64,000 nt of DNA, taken from Flavobacteriales bacterium (lineage in GTDB: Bacteria > Bacteroidota > Bacteroidia > Flavobacteriales > Flavobacteriaceae). Location of the stretch: the NCBI GenBank assembly GCA_011526365.1, contig WTIO01000051.1:1-64000 (forward strand), read 5' to 3'. The translations under genes were made by a program, and so were the position numbers. Under the pieces are notes generated by a model. That model ran no database searches, had not been told where the DNA came from, and was given only the letters and a program-made list of their open reading frames with translations. Shown piece after piece: positions 62,217 to 64,000 of the stretch. How positions within the stretch are numbered: the first letter of the stretch is position 1; each line of letters opens with the position of its first letter.

Positions 62217-62486
62217 TTATTTACGAAGTTTGAGCGTTTTCACAATCGCACGGTAACGCTCAATATCTTTATCTTTAAGATAATCAAGAATGTTACGACG
62301 CTTTCCTACCATACGTACCAATGCACGTTCGGTGTTAAAGTCCTTAGGGTTTTTCTTAAGGTGGTCAGAAAGGTGGTTGATACGATGTGTAAACAGGGCA
62401 ACTTGCCCTTCGGCAGTACCGGTGTCCTTTTCGGATTTCCCGTGCGTTTTAAAAATCTTAGCTTTTTCTTCTTTAGTTAGATACAT
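62217..62486 (-). CDS. rpsO: 30S ribosomal protein S15 (89 aa)
   Basis: Binds the central domain of 16S rRNA and forms a bridge to the 50S subunit. MYLTKEEKAKIFKTHGKSEK, then DTGTAEGQVALFTHRINHL (near 22-40), then the conserved RALVRMVGKRRNILDYLK. The start at 62486 is the family start. In-frame codons upstream cross a TAnnTTTG promoter element. Exactly the usual 89 residues. Confidence 0.97.
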   Translation of the reverse strand: MYLTKEEKAKIFKTHGKSEKDTGTAEGQVALFTHRINHLSDHLKKNPKDFNTERALVRMVGKRRNILDYLKDKDIERYRAIVKTLKLRK

Positions 62487-62531
62487 TCCAATATTGTTTA
62501 AATGATTATTATGTATTGCTCGAAAGCGTCG

Positions 62532-62539
62532 CAAAGATA
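62532..62539 (-). promoter_or_regulatory. -7 element of the rpsO-pnp promoter
   Basis: The minus strand reads TATCTTTG, a perfect match, 45 bases before the rpsO ATG. Confidence 0.55.
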
Positions 62540-62609
62540 CACTTAATTGTTAATATACACTACTTTAACCGAAGGATTTCCTAGTAGTATTGAAAAGGAA
62601 AGCTGCTGT

Positions 62610-62975
62610 TTATAGCACAATTTCATTAATGCTCCAATAATTTAAGTTTCGTGCAATGTTTTGTACGTAATCATGATACTTTAAGGGTTTTACGATGTAA
62701 CTAGAAGCCCCTCTAAAGTAGCAGGACTCTTTTTCTTTTTCACTGTTTGAAGTAGACAAGATTACTTTTGGAATACAGCGAATCGCAGGATATTTGGTTG
62801 TGGCTTCAACCAAATGCTTCAATAACTGAAGCATTTCTTGAAAACCATAAGTTCCAACGGCTGTGTAGATCCCTCCTGAGGTAAAGTTGGACTTTTCGAT
62901 GATGCTGTCCACCATAGCAAGTCCGTAGTTACTTTCTACAAAAGCTAGAAATTTACTAAAAAAAATTCCTTTCAA
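62610..62975 (-). pseudogene. Chimeric remnant: N-terminus of a heme-NO-binding (H-NOX) protein joined to the end of a receiver domain
   Basis: Residues 1 to about 56 (KGIFFSKFLAFVESNYGLAM, then SGGIYTAVGTYGFQEMLQLL) match the N-terminal part of HNOB/H-NOX domain proteins. Residues about 66-121 (CIPKVILSTSNSEKEKES, then ASSYIVKPLKYHDYVQNIA and NYWS) match the last half of an RcpA-type response regulator receiver domain, with the conserved TS and KP. The join near 62777-62801 is in frame. The H-NOX heme-ligand His region and the receiver phospho-Asp are both missing, and the usual ATG is TTG. So neither function can remain. Most simply, an internal deletion fused two neighbouring signalling genes (inference). 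Confidence 0.7.
62812..62836. repeat. Perfect 10-bp inverted repeat next to the chimera junction
   Basis: AAATGCTTCA, ATAAC, TGAAGCATTT inside the remnant gene, about 11-35 bases from the inferred join. A second short inverted repeat, GGTTG-N6-CAACC, follows it at about 62794-62809. Such hairpins can promote deletion by replication slippage. Confidence 0.6.
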
Positions 62976-63256
62976 AACACTAAAGATTAAGGTGTGTCTC
63001 GAGCTAGTACGTTCCTATTTGATCCGTAATGCTTAGTATAATTCCAAGCAAGAATGCAAAAGGAGCGTACCAGGAAAATTTGATAAAACAGGAAGGAGGG
63101 TAAAGTGTAGGTTGTTCATATAAGTGGGTTTTATATTCACCTACAATTAAACATTTTGCCCTAAAAAAAATACGCTTTAACAAAAAAAAGTAGGGTATAG
63201 GTGTTCAGCACACCAATTGGAGTTGTCGCAGCGCTGTCTCTAAAAAGGGAAAGCAA
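62976..63256. other. 281-bp gap without a supported gene
   Basis: Between the chimeric remnant and accD. A minus-strand frame open from about 63204 to a TAG at 63004 has a hydrophobic stretch (SWYAPFAFLLGIILSIT), but no convincing start and runs of T in the DNA that give Phe tracts. A 14-bp palindrome, AGCAACTAGTTGCT (63252-63265), covers the accD stop and is followed on the minus strand by a T-rich run, so it may be a weak accD terminator. Nothing else recognised. Confidence 0.4.
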
Positions 63257-64000
63257 CTAGTTGCTGCGCAGCGGACGATTTAAAATTAAATCGATGTATT
63301 GGTTGATTTGTGATTTGAGTTGACTTCTGTGTACTATAAAATCCAAAAACCCTTTTTCTTTAAGGAATTCACTGGTTTGAAAGCCTTCCGGTAAATCTTG
63401 TCCAGTGGTATCCTTAACCACGCGTGGTCCTGCAAAACCTATCAAGGCGCGGGGTTCGGCAATATTAATATCGCCTAACATCGCAAAAGAAGCTGTAGTT
63501 CCCCCAGTAGTAGGATCGGTACAAAGTGAAATATAAGGTACTTTGGCTTCGGACAATTCTGCTAGCATGGCAGAGGTTTTTGCCATTTGCATTAAAGAAG
63601 TTGCAGATTCCATCATTCGGGCCCCACCAGATTTTGAGATGACCACTAAAGGAATATTTTTCTCTAAGGCATGTTTGGCAGCTCGGGTAATTTTTTCTCC
63701 AACCACAGAGCCCATGGATCCTCCAATAAAGGCAAAGTCCATGCAGGCAACCACCAAGGCTTCCCCCATAGACTTTCCTACTGCAACGCGTATTGCGTCG
63801 TTAAGGTTGGTTTTTTTATGGGCTGCTTTTAGGCGGTCTTTGTATTTTTTGGTGTCCTCGAACTTTAAAAAGTCCTTAGAGCGAAGATCAGCATCCAGTT
63901 CTTCAAATTCATTGTCGTCAAAAAGTATTTGAAAATATTCTTTGCTTCCAATGTGCACGTGATAGTCATCTTCCGGGCTTATGTAGAAGTTTTCAGCTAA
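63257..64000 (-). CDS. accD: Acetyl-CoA carboxylase carboxyltransferase subunit beta AccD, 5' end outside the window
   Basis: Transfers the carboxyl group from biotin carrier to acetyl-CoA, the first step of fatty acid synthesis. The visible 247 residues run to the window edge as [20 protein letters not shown] in the same frame, so the gene is cut by the window, not truncated in nature. Crotonase-fold motifs [54 protein letters not shown] and [17 protein letters not shown] are intact. The N-terminal zinc ribbon lies beyond the edge. Confidence 0.95.

Follow-up and report, generated by a model that had tools for sequence, protein, structure and literature searches.

The minus-strand open reading frame at 62610..62975 of the window (the whole 64,000-nucleotide stretch of contig that was analysed) joins the N-terminal part of an H-NOX heme-NO sensor to the C-terminal part of a response regulator (RR). 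Judged by comparison with relatives, it is a real fusion of two genes from one operon type. The frame is probably a scrambled, non-functional remnant of a flavobacterial NO-sensing operon (RR, H-NOX, PAS histidine kinase and further genes), the rest of which was not found in this genome (~84% complete assembly).

Composition of the fusion frame

The frame runs from 62975 to 62610, and its 121 codons are open from a TTG start to a TAA stop without interruption. It was initially annotated as an in-frame chimera of an H-NOX N-terminus and a receiver C-terminus; Pfam HNOB, the RRs of relatives and DNA profiles agree with this description. Residues 2-61 match profile positions 1-59 of the 163 in HNOB (PF07700; E 2.7e-8, above the curated cut-off), a fraction of the full H-NOX heme domain of ~160-180 aa. 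The C-terminal half scores only 13.3 bits against Response_reg (PF00072), under the threshold. Compared with the stand-alone RRs that adjoin H-NOX in relatives, it aligns over residues ~60-120 with 36-53% identity (E to ~4e-16) and shares the YWSINE signature at their C-terminus. When profiles were made from the DNA of 35 Flavobacteriaceae RR/H-NOX operons, H-NOX matched over nt 2-177 of the frame (107.6 bits) and the RR over nt 197-359 (54.1 bits), both far above chance.

The H-NOX portion comprises codons 1-59 of ~180 (62799..62975, minus strand; up to 63% identity). The RR portion, of the H-NOX-linked receiver-only type, comprises the C-terminal ~56 residues, ~66-121 of the frame (62613..62779, minus strand). 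The first estimate had been 56 and 55 residues, with both identities correct. Between the two profile matches, from nt 177 to nt 197 of the frame, lies a junction of ~19 nt that resembles neither gene (62780..62798, minus strand). The RR portion begins at about RR codon 81 and runs to the RR stop, and the ends of the fusion are those of a natural H-NOX start and a natural RR stop. The start codon is TTG, versus ATG in the H-NOX genes of the dissected relatives, and an in-frame ATG does not occur before codon 21.

Both catalytic centres are absent, as had been proposed. In relatives the proximal His and the YxSxR region of H-NOX lie C-terminal of residue 60, and the acidic pocket and phospho-accepting Asp (LLDLNMP) of the RR lie in the ~80 N-terminal codons; both regions fall outside the retained parts. 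The receiver β4/β5 Thr/Ser and Lys are kept, in LSTS (the second Thr of TTS) and in KPLK (the conserved receiver Lys). The fusion is shorter than every homologue, as a gene remnant would be.

Two adjacent perfect hairpins are found at the junction. One, with 10-bp arms and a 5-nt loop, lies just ahead of it (62812..62836, minus strand); the other, with 9-bp arms and a 6-nt loop, has its second arm inside it (62792..62815, minus strand). When the frame was shuffled with its dinucleotides preserved, a hairpin of at least 9 bp overlapped the junction in 0.2% of cases; across the whole 64-kb window the hairpin scan gave only 12 hits of this kind.

Gene order in the family and the accD-rpsO locus

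In Flavobacteriaceae the operon runs from the RR (~136 aa) through H-NOX (~180 aa) to the PAS histidine kinase. The RR precedes H-NOX in all 35 dissected loci, and likewise among the matches listed from a search of 397 genomes of the family. The two genes usually abut or overlap: 34 loci have -4 to 115 nt between them, and the remaining one has 378 nt. From this native order a single deletion would yield an RR N-terminus followed by an H-NOX C-terminus, the opposite of the observed fusion, and simple deletion within the family gene order is thereby ruled out. The initial annotation, which invoked a deletion between adjacent NO-signalling genes, was therefore right about the adjacency but not about the order. 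Like the operon, the fusion draws on its first two genes, on the same strand. Unlike the operon, it holds the halves in reverse, with 59 H-NOX and ~56 RR residues left and neither a kinase nor an intact sensor. Literature searches turned up no description of the flavobacterial RR/H-NOX gene order, nor of an H-NOX-N/RR-C fusion.

Variants of the operon were also observed. In several genomes (L219-L226) it extends past the kinase into a FIST-like gene, a second kinase, an Hpt gene and a LytTR-type regulator, the later gene names being our own reading of the sequence. At another locus (L011, genome G007) the kinase comes immediately after the RR; here an operon of this type has lost its H-NOX gene in a separate event.

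The fusion lies between accD (63257..64000, minus strand), the upstream neighbour, which runs beyond the window and whose end carries a weak hairpin resembling a terminator, and rpsO (62217..62487, minus strand) downstream; pnp is also among the neighbouring genes. These neighbours, together with the named genomes that accD retrieved, assign the window to Flavobacteriaceae. In both congeners the accD-rpsO gap measures ~90 nt and is empty. Homology between the window and the congeners resumes at ~62544, so ~680 bp carrying the fusion are inserted relative to them (62545..63256). An intact H-NOX gene followed by an RR had been expected here in sister genomes. Neither gene was found in the gap of the congeners or in any of the other accD-rpsO gaps examined, and an intact ancestral pair at this locus was rejected on these grounds.

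The accD-rpsO gap is an insertion-tolerant, recurrent spot, holding unrelated genes in many other Flavobacteriaceae. In several loci (L042, L046, L050, L055, L059, L060 and others) it contains an antisense gene for a ~280-aa lipoprotein-like product, and in L048 a PAS histidine kinase. Near both ends of the present insertion is an imperfect 11-bp direct repeat (10/11; 62593-62603 and 63244-63254), which could be an insertion footprint or chance in AT-rich DNA. Upstream of the fusion, the insertion encodes a small hydrophobic peptide (63007-63108, minus strand) for which no relatives were found. It is probably chance or another scrap; its origin from a PAP2 phosphatase found no support. The stretch at ~63117-63178 (minus strand) resembles, small indels aside, the opening ~60 nt of H-NOX (p ~0.015-0.1, pairwise alignment versus shuffles; marginal) and is possibly a decayed second H-NOX copy. 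As an RR-end remnant or a second H-NOX start it was missed by the DNA profile and was not counted.

A full-length match to the fusion occurred in 1 of the 397 Flavobacteriaceae genomes, its own, so the product that was to be checked for conservation has no counterpart in the family search. No fusion came up when GTDB and viral contigs were scanned by peptide pattern, nor was one found in phages, and plasmids gave half matches only; carriage by a phage or plasmid is thus not supported. The same assembly contains no second H-NOX above the cut-off and no cognate RR, generic receivers only, and a search for the cognate kinase, run without a positive control, gave no match. The assembly is in 82 contigs and is only ~84% complete, so it might lack an operon that the organism has intact.

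Constraint, expression signals and predicted fold

Near-invariant columns were defined as those constant among relatives with at most one exception. The fusion is altered at 4 of 30 such columns in H-NOX and at 5 of 21 in the RR, several of the changes being conservative. With each relative held out in turn, the mean number of changes was 0.29 (H-NOX) and 0.40 (RR), with maxima of 3 and 2. In the codon tree the tip leading to the fusion measures 4.8 substitutions per codon, more than two-fold the next longest (2.2).

Synonymous sites are saturated, so that dN/dS of the terminal branch cannot be estimated directly; constraint was therefore assessed by fits with fixed omega and by two-phase fits. 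For the whole branch, lnL was -6428.3 at the background omega (0.045) and -6435.3 at an omega of 1, and neutrality was rejected. The advantage of the background omega was 7 log units overall, 5.8 for the H-NOX half alone and 1.2 for the RR half alone. The best two-phase fit had no neutral phase, but a late one was still not rejected: up to ~0.4-0.6 substitutions per codon of neutral evolution were tolerated within about 2 log units, falling to ~0.2-0.3 when the chance of a stop codon was included. Together these fits point to a mostly constrained history, presumably within genes that functioned; the fusion sequence may have been drifting since. The open frame had been taken as a sign either of a recent loss or of a retained new protein. 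The fusion is indeed recent or weakly constrained; the second option gained no support.

No TAnnTTTG box, which we take to be the Bacteroidetes -7 element, is present between accD and the frame, and rpsO keeps one at 62532-62539. AlphaFold2 gave a mean pLDDT of 48.7 on a thin alignment, with most of the receiver half below 45. In this model, which is weak evidence given so thin an alignment, the helices of H-NOX are weakly formed and those of the RR half are not.

Origin and fate of the fusion

For the reading as an operon remnant, we infer that the halves were joined back to front. The fusion point would be the new inner junction created by a ~350-bp tandem duplication that spans the boundary of RR and H-NOX; alternatively it would stem from a backward template switch at a hairpin. 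Flanking operon sequence would subsequently have been lost, or would never have been carried along. A plain tandem duplication should leave outer RR and H-NOX sequence; neither pairwise alignment nor DNA profiles convincingly showed the N-half of the RR or the C-half of H-NOX beside the frame, and their absence counts against this route. The intact 121 codons, the conservative nature of several changes at near-invariant sites, the rejection of neutrality over the whole branch and the incompleteness of the assembly also stand against the remnant reading. With no canonical Bacteroidetes promoter box found, ATG replaced by TTG, a broken receiver core and no heme site, the fusion would now be little used or unused, and its frame would still be open as the event was fairly recent on the time scale of gene decay. 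Bacterial gene remnants and pseudogenes, to the extent that PMC522871 and PMC9336565 outline them, provide a comparison class. The fusion is likewise truncated, confined to a single genome, partnerless and possibly under relaxed constraint; it differs in being one open frame still and in joining two different genes.

A single in-frame deletion would produce the observed order of the halves in one step and account for homology ending exactly where H-NOX starts and the RR terminates, provided that the ancestor had H-NOX upstream of the RR, either directly or in the order H-NOX, kinase, RR. The latter arrangement occurs in a single genome (G038), which belongs to a different family of Flavobacteriales. 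However, the required order was seen in none of the 35 dissected family loci nor among the matches listed from the 397-genome search, and the RR half is much closer to the RRs of the family (up to 53% identity) than to that of G038 (29%). Neither gene occupies the accD-rpsO position in any sister examined, and such a deletion is unlikely. Still less probable is an assembly or amplification artefact of this draft environmental genome. Hairpins such as those at the junction can give rise to amplification chimeras, and the draft is in 82 contigs; yet the locus is interior to an 82.7-kb contig with normal flanks, at least three false joins would be needed (on the accD side, at the junction and on the rpsO side), and the source genes are absent from the assembly.

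The fusion might instead be a retained and expressed small protein, for instance a putative decoy for binding partners of H-NOX or the RR. The open frame, the rejected neutrality with a best fit free of any neutral phase, the ends that match the natural start and stop of both genes, and the unrecognisable sequence beyond the frame would all be in keeping with this. We nevertheless regard it as improbable, and give equally little weight to the related proposal of a newly born 121-aa protein, its NO-sensor and RR halves permuted, that was putatively selected after the parent operon was lost. The cognate kinase, H-NOX and RR were not found in the genome and would thus offer no known target for interference; near-invariant sites are broken, the start is TTG with no TAnnTTTG box upstream, the predicted fold is of low confidence and a late neutral phase is tolerated. 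The presence in only one of the genomes searched likewise speaks against the new protein that the initial annotation had considered.

The fusion is thus very probably a leftover, without function, of an NO-sensing operon that was lost, and rearrangement explains it better than simple deletion. It is a caution, since a neat in-frame fusion of signalling genes mimicked a new protein until comparison showed that its halves are reversed and that the genome lacks the other parts of the pathway. On a small scale it also illustrates that decaying operons can leave reading frames open. Should the fusion prove to be under selection, it would count among the rare cases of a new bacterial protein that originated where a rearrangement joined two genes.
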